A stretch of 64,000 bases of DNA, taken from assembly GCF_014205155.1 (NCBI RefSeq), contig NZ_JACHMX010000001.1:7254001-7318000 (forward strand), given 5' to 3'. The notes under the pieces are model-generated. The model was not told where the DNA came from, did not search any database, and saw nothing but the letters and a program-made list of their open reading frames with translations. Position 1 is the first letter of the stretch. The number at the start of each line of letters is the position of its first letter. Of the stretch, positions 1,358 to 35,597 are shown in pieces. The translations under genes and the position numbers were made by a program. This DNA comes from Amycolatopsis umgeniensis (GTDB lineage Bacteria > Actinomycetota > Actinomycetes > Mycobacteriales > Pseudonocardiaceae).

Positions 1358-2371
1358 GTGCGGGGGATTGTCGCGGCGGCGGTCGTGCTGGGGACGTTCG
1401 TCGGCGGGGCGGCTCCCGCCATGGCACAGGACGTCCCGGCCCCGCAGCCGGTGTGCAAGAACGGCGATTCCCGGCTCAGTGAGCTTTCCGGTCTCGTTTC
1501 GGACGGCGAGCGGCTGTACGCCCTCAACGACGGCGGCACCAAGACGCAGGTCTTCGTGCTCGACCGCGACTGCAAGGTCCAGAAGGTCATCTCGGCCGCG
1601 ACGGATCCTTACGACCCCGAGGACCTCGCCCGCACCGCGGACGGCACCTTCTGGCTTTCCGACACCGGCGACAACCGCAAGCGCCGGGACACGGTCGCGC
1701 TGATCTCGCTGACCCCGCAGGGCAAGGCGACGCTGCACCGGCTCACGTACCCAGACGGGCAACACGACGTCGAAGCGTTGATCATGGATCGCTCGGGTAC
1801 GCCGTACCTGATCACCAAGGACCTCTTCGGCGACTCGAAGGTGTACCGGCCGACAGGACCGCTCGCCAGCCCCGGGCCGACGCCGCTGGAGAACGTGGGA
1901 TCACTGCAGATCAAGGAGACCTCGACGCCGGGTGGGCCTGCCGGGTCGATCGGTTCGATGACGGTGACCGGGGCGGCGTCGACGGCGGACGGGTCCGTGG
2001 TCGCGTTGCGCACCTACACCGACGCCTATCTCTACGCCGTCACCGACGGGGACCTGAAGGGCGCGCTGCAGCGCGAACCCGTGCGCGTACCCCTGCCGAA
2101 CGAGAAGCAGGGGGAGGCGCTCGCCTTCGACCCGGACGGGACCCTGCTGTCCGGCGGGGAGGGCGTCGGAGAGCAGATCCGCGCGGTGAAGGGCGCCGCG
2201 GCACTCGCCGTGGACGCGGCCAAAGCCGAGGGCAGTACCTCGGGCGGGACGTCCGCGGCCGCCGGCGAAGGCCGGGATTCCGGCTTCCCGTACGTGCAGG
2301 TCGGTATCGCCGCGATCGTGGTGATCGGCGGCCTCCTCCTGGTCGGCAGACTCCGCAAACGGCGTGCCTGA
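1358..2371 (+). CDS. Secreted, C-terminally anchored beta-propeller-like protein
   Basis: The product is 337 aa. GTG 1358 was chosen because GGAGG at 1348-1352 sits 5 nt upstream; the open frame extends further 5' but without a ribosome site. An N-terminal signal peptide (VRGIVAAAVVLGTFVGG, probable cut after AMA) is followed by repeats such as SGLVSDGERLYALND and LARTADGTFWLSDTGDN, typical of beta-propeller blades. Near the C-terminus an Ala/Gly/Ser-rich linker precedes one membrane helix (VGIAAIVVIGGLLLV) and a basic tail (RLRKRRA), which suggests outward display on the cell surface. No catalytic motif is recognised and the ligand is unknown. Confidence 0.75.
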   Translation: MRGIVAAAVVLGTFVGGAAPAMAQDVPAPQPVCKNGDSRLSELSGLVSDGERLYALNDGGTKTQVFVLDRDCKVQKVISAATDPYDPEDLARTADGTFWLSDTGDNRKRRDTVALISLTPQGKATLHRLTYPDGQHDVEALIMDRSGTPYLITKDLFGDSKVYRPTGPLASPGPTPLENVGSLQIKETSTPGGPAGSIGSMTVTGAASTADGSVVALRTYTDAYLYAVTDGDLKGALQREPVRVPLPNEKQGEALAFDPDGTLLSGGEGVGEQIRAVKGAAALAVDAAKAEGSTSGGTSAAAGEGRDSGFPYVQVGIAAIVVIGGLLLVGRLRKRRA

Positions 2372-2470
2372 CCGACGGAGGACGTGCCTGCCGAAGCCAG
2401 CCGGGTCTGACCCGTGGTCTCGATGACCCGGGATCCCGGCCTGCTCCGGCTCTGAACCGAAGGCTCCGGA

Positions 2471-3187
2471 CTAAAGCCTGCGGAGAACGGCGACGACCTT
2501 GCCGAGGATCGTGGCGTCGTCACCCGGGATGGGGTCGTACGCCTCGTTGTGCGGCATCAGCCAGATGTGGCCGTCCTTGCGCTTGAACGTCTTGACCGTC
2601 GCCTCGCCGTCGATCATCGCGGCCACGATCTCGCCGGGGTCGGCCGTGGGCTGCTGACGCACGACGACCCAGTCGCCATCGGTGATGGCGGCGTCGACCA
2701 TCGAGTCACCGGTGACACTGAGCAGGAACAGCTCACCCTCACCGACGATTTCCCGCGGCAGCGGGAACACGTCTTCGATCGCCTGCTCGGCCAGCACCGG
2801 CCCACCGGCGGCGATCCGGCCGACGAGAGGCACGTACGCGGCCTTCGCGGCCGACTGCGGCTGCTCGACGTCGATGCCCATCGGGTTGTCGTCCGTCGTG
2901 GCGAGCACTCCGACCGCACGCGGGCGGTTCGGGTCGCGTCGCAGATATCCCTTGCGCTGCAGGGCCTGCAACTGGTGCGACACCGACGAGGTGGAGGTCA
3001 GCCCGACCGCCTCGCCGATCTCACGCACACTCGGCGGGTAACCGAACCGGCTCACCCACATCTTGATCACGTCGAGCACCTGCTGCTGCCGCACGGTCAG
3101 GGTCTCGTCCACCTCGTAGACCTCGGGCAAGGCGCGCACCTTGCCCGAGCCCCTAGGCGCGTTCCCCGCCTTGCTCTCCTTAGCCAC
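2471..3187 (-). CDS. lexA: LexA, SOS-response repressor and self-cleaving protease
   Basis: The product is 238 aa, full length for actinobacterial LexA. An N-terminal winged helix-turn-helix (about residues 30-90, with [20 protein letters not shown] as recognition region) is joined to an S24 peptidase domain. The cleavage site is Ala127-Gly128 in RIAAGG. The catalytic pair is Ser162 (GDSMVD) and Lys199 (TVKTF). LexA represses DNA-damage genes until RecA filaments trigger self-cleavage. An SOS box at 3352-3367 upstream indicates autoregulation. The gene is divergent from a LysM protein, as lexA is in mycobacteria. Confidence 0.97.
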
Positions 3188-3351
3188 CGTCGTGCTCCTT
3201 CATCTCCTGCGCCGCCTCCCAGTACGTCCGGTTCCCCGGACCGACTTCGCGTGTCTTCGCCGGTGGCGGACGATCTTCCCGCCCACGGCACCGGCGGCGT
3301 CCGCACAGCAGACGCCCTGGTCAACGACGTTAGCCCGACGGGACGACGATT

Positions 3352-3367
3352 TCAAACATCTGTTCGA
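3352..3367 (-). promoter_or_regulatory. SOS box (LexA operator) of lexA
   Basis: On the minus strand this reads TCGAACAGATGTTTGA. It matches the mycobacterial/actinobacterial LexA consensus TCGAAC-N4-GTTNGA, with one arm slightly degenerate. It lies about 165 bp upstream of lexA and probably serves autoregulation. Confidence 0.85.
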
Positions 3368-3431
3368 TGGACACGCCGTGTCGCTCGATTTTTGTCGGTG
3401 GAAGGTGGTACACATTCGCACGGGCGTTCGA

Positions 3432-3447
3432 TAGAACGCGTGTTCGA
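3432..3447 (+). promoter_or_regulatory. Second SOS box, facing the LysM gene
   Basis: TAGAACGCGTGTTCGA has both half sites intact (GAAC-N4-GTTC). It lies 64 bp upstream of the LysM gene start and predicts DNA-damage induction of that gene. Confidence 0.85.
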
Positions 3448-3510
3448 TCTTGATCGCCGGGTCCGCCCGGTGCCGGACCTGAGTGAAGCAGGACTTGCGA
3501 GGAGGTTCCG

Positions 3511-4005
3511 ATGTCGATTCTGGCCGATCGAGGACTGGTGCGACCCAGTTCCCCCGGGCCCGTTCCGGCAGGGCTGACCCGGCCCGTACGGGCGGCGCGG
3601 GGCAGGCGTGCCGAGCCTTTGCGCCCGCCGACCAGGGCGCGGGTCGTGGCGGGCCGCCGTCCCGGTGTCGCCACCGCCTCCCCGGGGTGCCCGGCGCCCC
3701 GGCGGCTCCCGCTCCGGTGGCCGTCGCTCGTCGCGATGGCCTTGCTCGTCGCCGGGATCGTCACCGGATTGGGTCTGTTCTCGGCCGGTGTCCCCGGCGC
3801 CGCGGTGCCCGAACGGACCACCACGGTGTCCGTTTCCGCGGGCGAGACGCTGTCGGAACTCGCGGCGCGATTCGCGCCAGGCAGCGACACCGGCGCGGTC
3901 GTCGCCAAGATCAAGGAGCTCAATTCCCTGGAAGACGCCGTTCTCGTGCCCGGACTGCCGCTCACGGTCCCGGTCGCGGCCGAGGTGGCCGGGGGAGGCA
4001 AGTGA
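3511..4005 (+). CDS. LysM-domain membrane protein, SOS-controlled cell-division inhibitor candidate
   Basis: The product is 164 aa. ATG 3511 follows GGAGG with good spacing. An Arg/Pro-rich cytoplasmic N-terminus of about 65 residues leads to one membrane helix (VAMALLVAGIVTGLGLFSAG) and an extracytoplasmic LysM domain (from TTTVSVSAGETLSELAARF to LPLTVPV), which binds peptidoglycan. In mycobacteria the LysM gene divergent from lexA (Rv2719c/ChiZ) is DNA-damage induced and slows division. Position, architecture and the SOS box at 3432-3447 support the same role here. Whether it has hydrolase activity cannot be judged from the sequence. Confidence 0.85.
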   Translation: MSILADRGLVRPSSPGPVPAGLTRPVRAARGRRAEPLRPPTRARVVAGRRPGVATASPGCPAPRRLPLRWPSLVAMALLVAGIVTGLGLFSAGVPGAAVPERTTTVSVSAGETLSELAARFAPGSDTGAVVAKIKELNSLEDAVLVPGLPLTVPVAAEVAGGGK

Positions 4006-4106
4006 TCCTGAGGACCGCTCTCACCCACCGTGGGTGACCTGCCCGTTCGTGTCTGATCGACCCGCCCGTTGCGCTTGCGTGCGCCTCACCTGCGATCTAG
4101 TCTCCA

Positions 4107-4154
4107 CCGCTATATGTAGTAGTTACATGGCTGTAGTTGGTCCATAGCTTGGGG
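4107..4154 (+). promoter_or_regulatory. Tandem NrdR boxes upstream of nrdR-nrdJ
   Basis: Box 1 (4107-4122) contains CTATATGTAG, close to the NrdR consensus ACACTATATCTAGTGT. Box 2 (4139-4154) contains the more degenerate CCATAGCTTG. The two cores start 32 bp apart, about three helical turns, as is usual for paired NrdR boxes. Autoregulated repression of the nrdRJ operon is inferred. Confidence 0.7.
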
Positions 4155-4169
4155 TAGACTCGGTACCAG

Positions 4170-4210
4170 TTGTCCACAGCTGGCCGGTGTTCACCCACCG
4201 GATGTCCACA
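4170..4210 (+). promoter_or_regulatory. Two DnaA-box-like sites in the nrdRJ leader
   Basis: TTGTCCACA at 4170-4178 is an exact high-GC actinobacterial DnaA box. ATGTCCACA at 4202-4210 differs at one base. Their starts are 32 bp apart. They lie between the NrdR boxes and the nrdR start. The rest of the gap 4006-4306 holds no recognisable gene. Confidence 0.5.
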
Positions 4211-4306
4211 GATCGATCCACATGTCGATCTTTCCCGTCGTTGCGTGGCGGTGGGAGCGGACGTCCACTCGGGACCGGCCGGCGCGGAGGGGAAGGTGAT
4301 CGGCGG

Positions 4307-4795
4307 ATGAGGTGCCCGTTCTGCCGGCATGCGGACTCTCGGGTCGTCGACTCCCGAGAGGTGGATGAGGGTCAAGCGATCCGGCGGAGGCGTTCGTGCG
4401 CCGCCTGCGGCCGGCGCTTCACCACTTCGGAGACGATGGTGCTCGCCGTCGTCAAGCGATCCGGGGTCACCGAGCAGTTCAGCCGGGACAAGGTGGTCCG
4501 GGGGGTGCGCCGCGCCTGTCAAGGCAGGCCGGTCGACGACGACGCGCTGCAGCAGCTCGCGCAGCGGGTCGAGGAGTCGATCCGCTCGGCGGGGCTGGCG
4601 GAGATCCCGAGTCACGAGGTCGGCCTGGCGATCCTGGGCCCCCTGCGCGAACTCGACGGCGTCGCCTATCTCCGGTTCGCCAGTGTCTACCGCTCCTTCT
4701 CCTCGGTCGAGGACTTCGAGAAGGAGATCTCGGACCTTCGTGAGGCCATGGCTGCCGCACCGGACGAGAGCGATCAAGACGCGAAAGACGGCTGA
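4307..4795 (+). CDS. nrdR: NrdR, ribonucleotide reductase regulator
   Basis: The product is 162 aa. A zinc ribbon (Cys3, Cys6, Cys31, Cys34: MRCPFC and CAACGRRF) is followed by an ATP-cone domain. NrdR senses ATP/dATP and represses ribonucleotide reductase operons through paired NrdR boxes, which are present upstream. ATG 4307 gives the canonical MRCPFC N-terminus; the frame is open further upstream but without homologous sequence. nrdJ follows 33 nt downstream, so the two form an operon, an arrangement also seen in Streptomyces. Confidence 0.97.
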
Positions 4796-4828
4796 TGCCG
4801 CCTCCCGCGTGGGAGTGAGGGAAGACCC

Positions 4829-7648
<2,820 letters not shown>

Positions 7649-7649
7649 T

Positions 7650-9647
7650 TCAGGATCCTGACGGTGTGTCGGCCGCCGAGGCAGGCGCCCCGTCAGGATT
7701 TCCCACCAGGTCGAGCACTCGCTCCGCACGGTCAAGAAGCTGCTGGTAAGTGATGACCTCGACCCGGCTGAGATGGCTGTTGAAGATACGCAAGGTCTCG
7801 TGGATCCTCGATACCGTCAGATCTCGCTGGAAGTCCGGGTATCCAACGACCACGGTCGCACTCGCACGACGCGTGTCGATCCCGAACTCGTTCAGCAGAT
7901 CAGTGCGATGTTCGTCCAGCAGGGTAAGGTAGTTCATCGCCTGACCTACAGCCTCCTGCACGACGGCCGTAACGATGAGTCCGTTGCGATGTGGCCGTAC
8001 GGTACGTACGTCTGATCGCTTCAACTCCACGATGTGGAGTACTCCGTCCGGTTGGAGTAGGGGAATGTCAAGTTCGATCGTCTCCACTAGGCGGCGTCGC
8101 ACCGCCTCTCCGACAAACTCGCCGCCGAAAATCCACCACGCGTTGCTCAGTGCGGACTGAATATCCTGTTCGAGACCCCCGGCTTTCCGAACGGCCTGAC
8201 GTACGGTGGCCAGTTGCTCCCTCCGGACGTGCAGTTGTATCGCGGATAGCAGTTCGACTGCATCGCCCCGTTCCAGCAGGCTGACTATCTCGGCGGGGAG
8301 ATCTCCGGCTGAGATGGTGGGTTCGTCCGGTTCGTCCGGTTCGTCATCGATCTCGCTCCTCCACCCGTGGCGTAGTCGACGATCGCTTCGTGCCGTGTTG
8401 GCAGCGTAGTTGCAGTCTGCGCGTATGAGCCCATTGTCTCCAAGGCCGTAGCCGAAGCCGCTGAAGTAGGTATTGATGTTGCTGGTATCGGCTGGGGGCT
8501 TCCGGGCGGGATCCGATGCGACGGTCTCGACCTGTTTCGCCAGCTCTGGAAATCCGTGCCAGGTCAAGAGATTCTTGAGGAATAGTGCGGGGCGCTTGTC
8601 GGTGTAAACATGGGGATGCTCATGGTCCACTTCCAGGCCGATTAGTCCGACCTTGCGTTCCTGAAGGAACAATCGGAAGATTGCTGGTATGCGGCCCGCG
8701 AGCCAAGTAAAAGTGGTTGTCCTGATTCGGGCGCAGGGAAATAGGTGATGTAGCACGTATGTCGGCAATGGGAGTTGATCCTCGTGAAAGAGGGCAAAAG
8801 TCTCACCGTGGTGCGCGGTGCAGATCCCTTCGAGGACCTCGATCCAGAGTCGTGTCGTTTTGGCCCACGCCGCATAGGCTTGATCTGGCAGGTTCAACCA
8901 TTCGTCACCTGCTTGGCCTGGAAGATCCGGCAAGACCTCCTCGATTCCTCGGTGCGCCCATTTTCGCTGCTCGGCAGAGACTCTTTCCGCTGCTGAGCTA
9001 GGGTGCTCGCCTTCTGCTATCAAGTCGAGGAGTTTGGGTAGTACGTGTCGACTCGCCAGGGATAGCACATCCCATTCGGAGAGTCGGTCTATGTTGCTGA
9101 ACTCGCGTGCGGCAATGTTCTCGAACCTGGCGTACTTGCGGTGCTTGATACTCTGTTTCGACCGTTTATTCGTGCGAAGCCATGTGGCGGCGATCATCAG
9201 GGGGAGTCGATTGGTAAGCTCCTTTGAGAGCTTCTCCAAGAATGATTCTCTGTGTTCGCGACACTGCTTCCATACTTTGGAGAGCGGGGCCTTGGAAACA
9301 ATGGGATGGTTCTGTTTAAGGGTGGTGATATCGTATCCTGATAGGTCAATCTTCCGGTGCTCCAGTTTTTCGGCGAGGAGGTTCGTGTGAGCGTCGAACT
9401 CTATTAGTGCTCGACCCGCCGTGAAATGGTCGGCCAACGCCCCTGGTGAGATGCAATGCACTTTTCCTGGGGCGTCCAGGTCTTCGATAGAACCTTTGCG
9501 GGGCTGAATTCGAGTGACTCTGCGCGCTTGCTGCTTCAGGCCAGTGCAATCACGGTCGCCATGCCAGAGGCTGCCGGACTTTGTGCACCACAGGGTCAAT
9601 TCGACGCCCGCTAGTGGTCCAAGCGGGATGTTCTTAGTCGTCAACAT
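7650..9647 (-). CDS. Shedu-type (DUF4263) nuclease with long uncharacterised N-terminal region; candidate anti-phage protein
   Basis: The product is 665 aa. ATG 9647 was chosen for the AGGG site upstream; the frame continues to 9752 without one. The C-terminal third matches the Shedu/DUF4263 nuclease fold: WWIFGGEFVG, then LDIPLL...VELKR giving a PD-(D/E)xK set Asp527, Glu541, Lys543, then QAMNY at Gln569 and VVVGYP. Shedu proteins are single-gene phage defence nucleases. The first 480 residues are not recognised. They begin with a possible zinc site (Cys21, His29, Cys34, Cys65, around TKSGSLWHGDRDC). Base composition is clearly lower in GC than the neighbours, especially 8.6-9.65 kb, which suggests acquisition. 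A role in defence is inferred from the domain; the trigger is unknown. Confidence 0.75.
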   Translation of the reverse strand: MLTTKNIPLGPLAGVELTLWCTKSGSLWHGDRDCTGLKQQARRVTRIQPRKGSIEDLDAPGKVHCISPGALADHFTAGRALIEFDAHTNLLAEKLEHRKIDLSGYDITTLKQNHPIVSKAPLSKVWKQCREHRESFLEKLSKELTNRLPLMIAATWLRTNKRSKQSIKHRKYARFENIAAREFSNIDRLSEWDVLSLASRHVLPKLLDLIAEGEHPSSAAERVSAEQRKWAHRGIEEVLPDLPGQAGDEWLNLPDQAYAAWAKTTRLWIEVLEGICTAHHGETFALFHEDQLPLPTYVLHHLFPCARIRTTTFTWLAGRIPAIFRLFLQERKVGLIGLEVDHEHPHVYTDKRPALFLKNLLTWHGFPELAKQVETVASDPARKPPADTSNINTYFSGFGYGLGDNGLIRADCNYAANTARSDRRLRHGWRSEIDDEPDEPDEPTISAGDLPAEIVSLLERGDAVELLSAIQLHVRREQLATVRQAVRKAGGLEQDIQSALSNAWWIFGGEFVGEAVRRRLVETIELDIPLLQPDGVLHIVELKRSDVRTVRPHRNGLIVTAVVQEAVGQAMNYLTLLDEHRTDLLNEFGIDTRRASATVVVGYPDFQRDLTVSRIHETLRIFNSHLSRVEVITYQQLLDRAERVLDLVGNPDGAPASAADTPSGS

Positions 9648-9855
9648 CGTCAGATTCCCTGTTCTTTCGATGGCATGTGTTGTGCTGGCGGCGAATGGTT
9701 CGCGTGGTGGCGAAACTGAGCATAGTTGTGGCTTCAGCGCGTCGGGCTGCACCTGCCCTTGGGGCTTGGCGGGTGTCCGCGTTGTGGGCTGATTTCGTGC
9801 GTGGTCGGGAAATCTGAGTTCCCGGGCCAGTAGGCGTGCTGTTCTGAATCCCTCA

Positions 9856-10203
9856 CTACGCCAGGTCGAGGACGAAGGTCGCGACCGTCAGCGCGAGAAA
9901 GCCGGCAGGGAAGGCGATGTTGTAGAAGACCCGGGCGCGCACGTGGGTGATGACGGCGCCGACGTAGAACAGCACGAGCCCGGCCGCCGCCGCTGTCCCG
10001 ATGTACGGCACTCCGAGCAGGCCGAGCAGCAGTCCCATCGCGCCCGCCGCTTTCAGCGAAGCCAGGGGCGGGATCCAGGACGGCGGAACGTCGACTTCGG
10101 CGGAGTTCTTGAGGACGAACGGGACCCGCGCGAGATCGGCGGCGGCGATCCCGGCGTTGATCACGATTGTCACGATGGCCACGGTGAGATAGGCGGAGTT
10201 CAT
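9856..10203 (-). CDS. DoxX-like small membrane protein
   Basis: The product is 115 aa with four predicted membrane helices (YLTVAIVTIVINAGIAAA, ASLKAAGAMGLLLGLLG, AAAAGLVLFYVGAVITHV, FPAGFLALTVATFVLD). The pattern of a loop with PPSW, the conserved LKAAGAMGLLLG and a RARVFYN turn fits the DoxX_2 family. Function is unclear; some DoxX relatives take part in redox stress membrane complexes. It stands alone between the acquired nuclease gene and the DUF2293 gene, on the same strand as both. Confidence 0.75.
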   Translation of the reverse strand: MNSAYLTVAIVTIVINAGIAAADLARVPFVLKNSAEVDVPPSWIPPLASLKAAGAMGLLLGLLGVPYIGTAAAAGLVLFYVGAVITHVRARVFYNIAFPAGFLALTVATFVLDLA

Positions 10204-34009: not shown

Positions 34010-34085
34010 AGGCCGAACTTAGGAACTGAGACCGTGCCGGGGCATCAGGAAGATCACCGGTTCCGACCCTGGGATCATCTGGGGG

Positions 34086-35597
34086 TCAGGCGTCGGGATA
34101 CCGCGGTTCCCAGGCCTCGGCGACACCTTCCGCCGCGAGTTCCCGCTTGAGGATCTTGTGCGTCGCCGTCCGCGGCAGTTCCTCGACCACCCGCACGAAC
34201 CGGGGCCGCTGTTTCGGTCCGAGATCGCCTTGCGCCGCGACGAAAGCGGCGAACTCGTCCGCGTCGACCGGTGCCCGGCAGACCAGCGCGGCCATCACCC
34301 GGTCGCCCACTCGCGGATCCGGCACGCCGTACACCGCCGCTTCCCGGACGGCCGGGTGCCGCAGGAGCGCGCGTTCGATCGGGGCGGTGCCGAGGTTCTC
34401 GCCGTCGACGCGGAGCCAATCGCCGAGCCGTCCGGCGAAATAGCAGTGGCCGTCCGCGTCGAGGTACGCCAGGTCGCCGGTGTGGTACATCCCGTCGCGC
34501 ATCCGCTCGGCCTCGGCGGCCGGATCGCCGTAGTACCCGGCGAAGAAGCCGGCTCCGCCGGTGTTGACCAGTTCGCCGACCGCCTCGGCGGCGTTGAGGA
34601 GCTTGCCGTCCGCGTCGAATTCCGCCGGAGGACAGGGTTTCCCGGTCTCCGGATCGAGGACGGCGACGCCGTCGAGCAGCCGGCCGAGCGAACCGGCGGG
34701 GGTGCTGGCGTCCCGGCCGAAGTTCACGCCGCCCTCGGTCGAGCCGAACGCGTCGACCACGTGGCAGCCGAAACGCTTGCCGAAAGCAGCCAGATCGGCT
34801 TCCGTGCCTTCGTTGCCGTAGACCACCTTCAGCGGATTGTCGGCGTCGTCGTCCCGCTCGGGAGTGGCGACCACATAGGACAGTGGCTTGCCGACGTAGT
34901 TGGCGTAGGTCGCGCCGAACTCCCGGATGTCGGGCAGGAAGCCGGACGCGGAGAACCGGCGCCGCAACGCGACCCCCGCGCCCGCGGCGAGCCCGACCGA
35001 CCAGCCTGCCATGATGGCGTTGGAGTGGAACAGGGGCATCGACACGTACACGGTGTCCTGTGTGGACATACCGAACCGGACGGCCAGCATCTCGCCGGGA
35101 TAGGCGATCTTGCCGTGCGTGCACCGGACGGCCTTCGGGTCGCCGCTGGTGCCGGAGGTGAAGATCAGCATGAGCAGGTCTTCGGGCTTCGCGGCCACCG
35201 GGACGACGGCCTCCCGCAGCGGCTCGAACTCGCTCAGCGGCAGTACCGGGACATCCGTCCCGGACAGCAGCGGGAGGTACTTCTCCTCGGCGAACACCAG
35301 CTCGCAGTCCGCCAGCGCGACGTCACGGGCCAGCGCCGCGCCCCGGCGCGTCGGGTTCAGGCCGACCAGCACGTGACCCGACAGCGCCGCGCCGCCGAGC
35401 AGGAACGAGAACTCGGGGACGTTGTCCGCCAGCAGCCCGAAATGCCCGCCGGGACGCAGCGTCCTGGTGAGCGCGGCGGCGTGCCCGGCGCAGGCCCGGA
35501 CGTGCTCCGCCCACGACCAGCGCCGGTCTTCGAACAGCAGCCCGGTCGACGGGTCTTCTGCCCGGGCGAGCAGGAGTTCCGTGACCGTGGTCGTCAC
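34086..35597 (-). CDS. fadD17: Steroid side-chain acyl-CoA ligase, FadD17-like
   Basis: The product is 503 aa. GTG 35597 shares GTGA with the fadE27 stop. Adenylate-forming enzyme: P-loop-like FTSGTSGDPK, AFGSTEGG, the TGD motif (YHTGDLAY) and the C-terminal ATHKILK with the catalytic lysine. The order fadE26-fadE27-fadD17, divergent from fdxD and next to mce4, is that of the mycobacterial cholesterol regulon, where FadD17 activates sterol side-chain acids. Substrate assignment is by context. Confidence 0.88.
   Translation of the reverse strand: MTTTVTELLLARAEDPSTGLLFEDRRWSWAEHVRACAGHAAALTRTLRPGGHFGLLADNVPEFSFLLGGAALSGHVLVGLNPTRRGAALARDVALADCELVFAEEKYLPLLSGTDVPVLPLSEFEPLREAVVPVAAKPEDLLMLIFTSGTSGDPKAVRCTHGKIAYPGEMLAVRFGMSTQDTVYVSMPLFHSNAIMAGWSVGLAAGAGVALRRRFSASGFLPDIREFGATYANYVGKPLSYVVATPERDDDADNPLKVVYGNEGTEADLAAFGKRFGCHVVDAFGSTEGGVNFGRDASTPAGSLGRLLDGVAVLDPETGKPCPPAEFDADGKLLNAAEAVGELVNTGGAGFFAGYYGDPAAEAERMRDGMYHTGDLAYLDADGHCYFAGRLGDWLRVDGENLGTAPIERALLRHPAVREAAVYGVPDPRVGDRVMAALVCRAPVDADEFAAFVAAQGDLGPKQRPRFVRVVEELPRTATHKILKRELAAEGVAEAWEPRYPDA

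Follow-up and report, generated by a model that had tools for sequence, protein, structure and literature searches.

The window, a 64,000-nucleotide stretch of the Amycolatopsis umgeniensis genome that was analyzed as a whole, contains a gene whose product is a one-gene Shedu-family protein, likely active in phage defense, with an uncatalogued N-terminal domain. Variation among Shedu N termini is itself already published, type I Shedu being portrayed as one unvarying nuclease joined to diverse, exchangeable N-terminal regulators (PMC12904381, PMC12409362, PMC12137116). The interest of this Shedu N terminus lies mainly in a domain that also exists alone. An earlier sequence-only reading had placed an open reading frame at 7650..9647 and left its strand unstated; the frame is present as claimed, on the minus strand, with an ATG at 9647 and a stop codon at 7650-7652, and it encodes 665 amino acids. 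Homologues with roughly the same starting point back this ATG; the frame stays open upstream to a GTG at 9752, and one database record (P0002, 595 amino acids) has its start 70 residues further in. The gene and its parts are as follows.

7650..9647, minus strand: whole Shedu-family gene, 665 amino acids (open reading frame list, translation, Pfam, PADLOC)
8313..9647, minus strand: N-terminal domain, residues 1-445, without a library match, with fused and standalone homologues
8298..8375, minus strand: low-confidence linker, residues 425-450, at the border of the two domains (PADLOC, full-length model)
7698..8297, minus strand: Shedu PD-(D/E)XK nuclease domain, residues 451-650 (Pfam, PADLOC, Foldseek, conservation)
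8067-8069, minus strand: predicted active-site residue D527
8025-8027, minus strand: predicted active-site residue E541
8019-8021, minus strand: predicted active-site residue K543
7941-7943, minus strand: predicted active-site residue Q569

By profile and by modeled fold, residues 451 to 650 form a nuclease domain of the Shedu PD-(D/E)XK type, which is predicted to cut DNA. The earlier assignment of the C terminus to DUF4263/Shedu was borne out by profiles, predicted fold, and conserved residues. A profile search, named in advance as the check on that assignment, places the region inside the family, with Pfam SduA_C matching residues 493 to 638 at 50.8 bits against a curated cut-off of 27 (E = 2.7e-13). 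All 11 PADLOC profiles matched at E<=1 are SduA profiles, the best of them at 6.6e-78 over residues 451 to 646. When a full-length model was compared with the PDB by Foldseek, the top nine matches were all chains of E. coli or B. cereus Shedu (E from 6.4e-6 to 1e-3), the best being 8ps4 at 6.4e-6, and chain C of 8ti9 gave a target TM score of 0.71. A protein search with residues 455 to 660 found 504 proteins, of which the best 120 were listed; after removal of the window's own record and seven fused relatives, 112 relatives entered a conservation count. D527 is kept in 111 of these 112 relatives and E541, K543, and Q569 in all of them, each lying exactly at the position first proposed for it.

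The nuclease relatives carry varied N termini, their match beginning anywhere from residue 75 to residue 606 in 22 frames with uncurated start codons. Several other, unlike N termini are found on nuclease-domain relatives from the same order (loci L012-L015, L017-L021, L023, and L024). Most relatives with other N termini align to the window protein only from about residues 449 to 472 onward, the PADLOC SduA match begins at residue 451, and the full-length model is disordered at residues 425 to 448, which together put the domain border at about 445 to 450. A long N-terminal region was thus rightly recognized, but it ends nearer to these residues than to the roughly 480 first estimated. That the region matches nothing holds for the libraries: residues 1 to 446 match no Pfam family up to E=10, including no DNA-binding or ATPase profile, and the domain has no match in PADLOC, NCBIfam, or PDB sequences. 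It does not hold for the sequence databases, which contain both fused and standalone homologues, and the region is a conserved domain. The best SduA profile (PADLOC PDLC00401, 404 positions) is matched only over positions 200 to 398, so the N terminus is not that subtype. Among openly licensed PMC papers we found none on this domain, which the classes of Gu et al. could include.

A whole-protein search with 7,998 scored candidates found nine proteins, namely, the window's own record, seven fused proteins, and one N-terminal part. A search with an alignment of the N-terminal domain found 12 proteins, among them P0011 to P0014, which lack a Shedu domain, and the N-terminal part P0010. Searches of whole genomes gave matches within residues 2 to 386 in open frames of about 452 amino acids, ending where Shedu would begin. 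The standalone relatives (P0011-P0013, L026/L051, L028, and L049) are about 450 amino acids long and 26 to 30% identical to the window protein over most of the N-terminal domain. They share its PLGP, WH....C, and HC motifs and, unlike the window protein, they lack a Shedu domain. Most have a basic C-terminal tail, 4 to 6 K/R being present among the last 12 residues in six of the eight relatives counted (P0014 and L052 left out). The proposed search for the same N terminus with other effectors gave a different outcome: the domain does occur elsewhere, but in proteins of about 450 amino acids that stand alone rather than fused to another effector. We found no homologue of known function.

The N-terminal domain is rare. 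It was found in 12 of 390 genomes of the window's family (fragments counted, with G004 a weak 40-residue match), in 1 of 397 genomes drawn from the order (its own), and in 3 of 394, its own included, drawn from the class; a search with the L121 protein in one further genus found matches, mostly partial, in 5 of 150 genomes. A search of 72,556 plasmid records gave no match to the N terminus, and one of 50,697 phage records gave none to the whole protein; of the 19 pattern stretches seen in viral contigs, not one could be confirmed. Carriage by phage or plasmid was rejected on these results.

Folded alone from 14 sequences, the N-terminal domain gave a model with a mean pLDDT of 86.3 and a pTM of 0.82, in which a small beta module is followed by a helical region, an alpha/beta region, and a poorly predicted end.

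9441..9647, minus strand: beta module, residues 1-69, 1-66 in the model (N-terminal model, conservation, distant relatives)
8814..9440, minus strand: helical region, residues 70-278 (both models)
8520..8804, minus strand: alpha/beta region, residues 282-376 (both models)
9561-9563, minus strand: likely metal ligand H29 (conservation)
9546-9548, minus strand: likely metal ligand C34 (conservation)
9453-9458, minus strand: likely metal ligands H64-C65 (conservation)

The best-kept motif of the domain, PLGPxxG...W..K.G..WH....C...HC, falls in the beta module. H29, C34, and C65 are present in all 14 rows of the alignment, and position 64 is His in 13 rows and Cys in one, so these four positions likely form a metal site, judged from the alignment and the model. 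In the full-length model, which was built from 26 sequences, residues 1 to 65 are poorly predicted (pLDDT of 33 to 56 in blocks up to residue 60), which may come from the differing N termini of the ordinary Shedu rows, and this lowers our trust in the metal module. In two distant relatives, L121 and L122, H-x4-C precedes C-x2-C within the same frame of conserved residues, an arrangement that we take to be that of an Ada-like four-ligand zinc module. That name was not adopted for the window protein, in which H29-x4-C34 is present and the second pair is H64-C65, C-x2-C being confined to the two distant relatives. No match to a solved fold was seen for the N-terminal model among the best 50 of 165 Foldseek matches at E<=10, and the clamp of 8ps4 is also absent from these 50.

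The account that we find reasonably probable is that the Shedu nuclease (residues 451 to 650) cuts invading DNA and that the uncatalogued, likely metal-binding domain (residues 1 to 445) gates it. Since published Shedu N termini are exchangeable regulators, residues 1 to 445 are, by analogy, likely the trigger. In such a scheme the N-terminal domain would recognize a nucleic-acid feature of the infecting phage, much as E. coli Shedu is reported to bind DNA ends with its N-terminal clamp (PMC12904381); it would hold the nuclease inactive until recognition, and the released nuclease would then cut the phage DNA directly. The helical part has 31 K/R against 29 D/E and thus no basic excess, so nucleic-acid binding is suggested by the analogy and by the basic tails of the standalone relatives, which lead us to favor nucleic acid as the ligand. 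We consider it unlikely that the trigger is instead a phage (or host) protein, with a metal site that only stabilizes the fold; the long helical region without basic excess and the lack of any DNA-binding profile in the N terminus up to E=10 are consistent with a protein trigger, but the basic tails and the reported clamp argue against it.

The genes next to the standalone copies were surveyed at six loci (L026, L027, L028, L049, L050, and L052, with the fragment L047 left out), the genes at each being scanned in part. As a raw count, four of these six loci have a defense-like or mobility gene in the stretch that was fetched: an OLD/GajA/AriA-like ATPase gene at L049, a GmrSD_N gene at L052, a serine recombinase at L050, and a trypsin-TPR-CHAT gene at L028. 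Nothing was recognized in the one neighbor scanned at L026 (PADLOC) or in the one scanned at L027 (Pfam and PADLOC). A fixed effector partner was rejected, no partner being common to any two loci. At L049, from Actinospica durhamensis, the standalone gene (463-1746) overlaps the ATPase gene (1725-4367) tail to tail by 22 bases. Behind the distant standalone relative at L121 (6351-7775), and in the same direction, lies a gene (7840-10071) for 743 amino acids without a Pfam match, in which a PD-(D/E)XK-like motif and a stretch resembling a zinc ribbon can be made out by eye; this gene has no match in L131, the site of the standalone gene's nearest relative. L122 encodes at 4260-6545 a 762-amino-acid protein without a Pfam match that has a PLGP/zinc-like module at both ends, and its gene lies near a DEAD-box helicase gene. 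Because some standalone copies adjoin effector-like genes (the OLD/GajA-like gene at L049, the GmrSD-type gene at L052, and the gene with the nuclease-like motif at L121), we tentatively raise the idea, doubtful as it is, that the domain is a portable actinobacterial phage-sensing module, acting in cis with Shedu and in trans as a sensor of about 450 amino acids for other effectors.

Trees of the two domains agree in grouping the fused proteins. In the nuclease-domain tree (53 rows, including the window and seven database fusions), the eight fused proteins lie on one side of a branch with support of 100/100; in the N-terminal tree (14 rows), eight fused rows, here the window, six database fusions, and the Crossiella N-terminal part, again form one side of one branch, also at 100/100. 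The nearest nuclease relatives are Shedu proteins of about 390 to 404 amino acids with an N terminus of about 200 amino acids (P0015-P0020), in a sister grouping with support of 93/86. Since the fused proteins form one clade in both trees, the N terminus was probably swapped once, a domain of the standalone kind replacing the N terminus of about 200 amino acids of an ordinary actinobacterial Shedu. In G000 and G062, which belong to one genus, the Shedu proteins are 67% identical and residues 555 to 939 of NrdJ, the product of the neighboring gene, 85%, and the Saccharopolyspora protein P0003 is 77% identical to that of the window. Identities of Shedu against nrdJ, without reconciled trees, do not settle whether the gene was transferred horizontally into this site. 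One database protein, P0007 from Lentzea sp. NPDC051838 (965 amino acids), has a LysR-type regulator joined ahead of the fused Shedu protein in its record, which is either a real fusion or an annotation artifact.

The Shedu-family gene lies tail to tail with nrdJ, their stop codons being one base apart in the window, and the two genes meet in a hairpin.

4829..7648, plus strand: nrdJ, class II (B12-dependent) ribonucleotide reductase, tail-to-tail neighbor (Pfam)
7657..7697, no strand assigned: imperfect hairpin within the final codons of the Shedu gene (residues 651-664), predicted to serve as terminator for it and for nrdJ

The surroundings are housekeeping genes, with no recognized defense island. 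The fused gene was located in G000, G062, G486, G488, and G556, and a remnant of about 25 residues of its end in G020; all six of these copies or remnants are tail to tail with nrdJ, a count that covers the located ones, six further database fusions being unplaced. Of 35 further genomes from this genus, 34 lack any match to the gene within about 6 kb of the site; the exception is G020. The gap between nrdJ and doxX, which in the window spans 7649-9855, is a variable site: in the 12 nearest relatives (L083-L090, L108, L113, L115, and L116) its length ranges from 444 to 2,087 bp and its gene content differs, including one gene whose start looks P-loop-like by eye. The nrdJ gene of G062 (L030, 9155-14302) has intein-like inserts (Intein_splicing at 5e-12 and two LAGLIDADG_3 stretches), and in 10 of the 60 genomes searched the nrdJ match is interrupted at a few recurring positions, the pieces overlapping at their ends; the nrdJ gene of the window has no such inserts.

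The inverted repeat in the last Shedu codons is found in all six located copies or remnants, with 18 consensus pairs, of which five are changed on both sides and three are broken in the window; part of this pairing could be due to codon constraints. A hairpin ends nrdJ in all six cases with the gene or its remnant, the window's being the weakest (z of -2.1). Where nrdJ has no Shedu neighbor it also ends in a hairpin, with a stem of at least 9 in 32 of 34 genomes and a z below -2 in 33 of 34 (single-base shuffles). The best reading of the shared tail is thus that it is the predicted terminator of nrdJ, serving both genes, and that G020 has retained this predicted terminator as its remnant.

Two of the located copies are broken. 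About residues 28 to 441 of the fused protein are lost in G488, and G556 (Crossiella; L044, 7357-9534) has an in-frame stop close to the domain border, which splits the N-terminal and Shedu parts into two open frames. Such losses suggest a long-resident gene that frequently disappears. Third-position G+C in the gene is 0.65, compared with a median of 0.90 over 45 script-picked open reading frames of more than 150 amino acids in the window; the sole frame below it (34075-35124) has an arginine-rich translation and is taken to be false, and the low value fits a foreign or fast-evolving gene. We regard it as improbable that the gene, as a resident of the chromosome linked to nrdJ, serves host DNA metabolism or nucleotide supply rather than defense: the contact with nrdJ in all six located cases and the shared hairpin would fit such a role, but position alone is no functional link, and the 34 genomes that have nrdJ without a trace of the gene, the broken copies, and the odd G+C give instead the profile of a dispensable, exchanged gene. 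It is very improbable that the gene is in decay and yields no functional protein. Its relatives in the same spot are indeed broken in G488, G556, and G020, but the window copy is one open frame that keeps all of its active-site and candidate metal residues, and full-length relatives are 62 to 77% identical to it.

A nuclease gated by its N-terminal domain remains our preferred account. With a constant Shedu nuclease and an N terminus thought to choose the target, each new N terminus is a candidate route of phage recognition. The natural free-standing form makes the recognition domain separable from the nuclease for study, and it offers a handle on whether bacterial sensors move between unrelated defense effectors.

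Set beside known systems, the window protein has the organization by which type I Shedu is defined, a variable N-terminal domain and a C-terminal nuclease in one protein (PMC12409362, PMC12137116). Its nuclease resembles those of E. coli SduA (8ps4, 8ps5) and B. cereus Shedu (8ti8, 8ti9) by profile and predicted fold, and their N termini gave no match to residues 1 to 445 in sequence or fold searches. VcSduA likewise joins a long N terminus to a DUF4263 nuclease in one protein, and it is reported to have a GHKL ATPase N terminus (type I-D) and to lose protection in a K557A variant (PMC12137116); no GHKL profile is found in residues 1 to 446 of the window protein up to E=10. Ordinary actinobacterial Shedu proteins of about 400 amino acids (P0015-P0020, PDLC00401) are closest in the nuclease, which is 52 to 56% identical to that of the window in the nearest six, whereas their N terminus of about 200 amino acids is not aligned to residues 1 to 450 by BLASTP or by the PADLOC profile.
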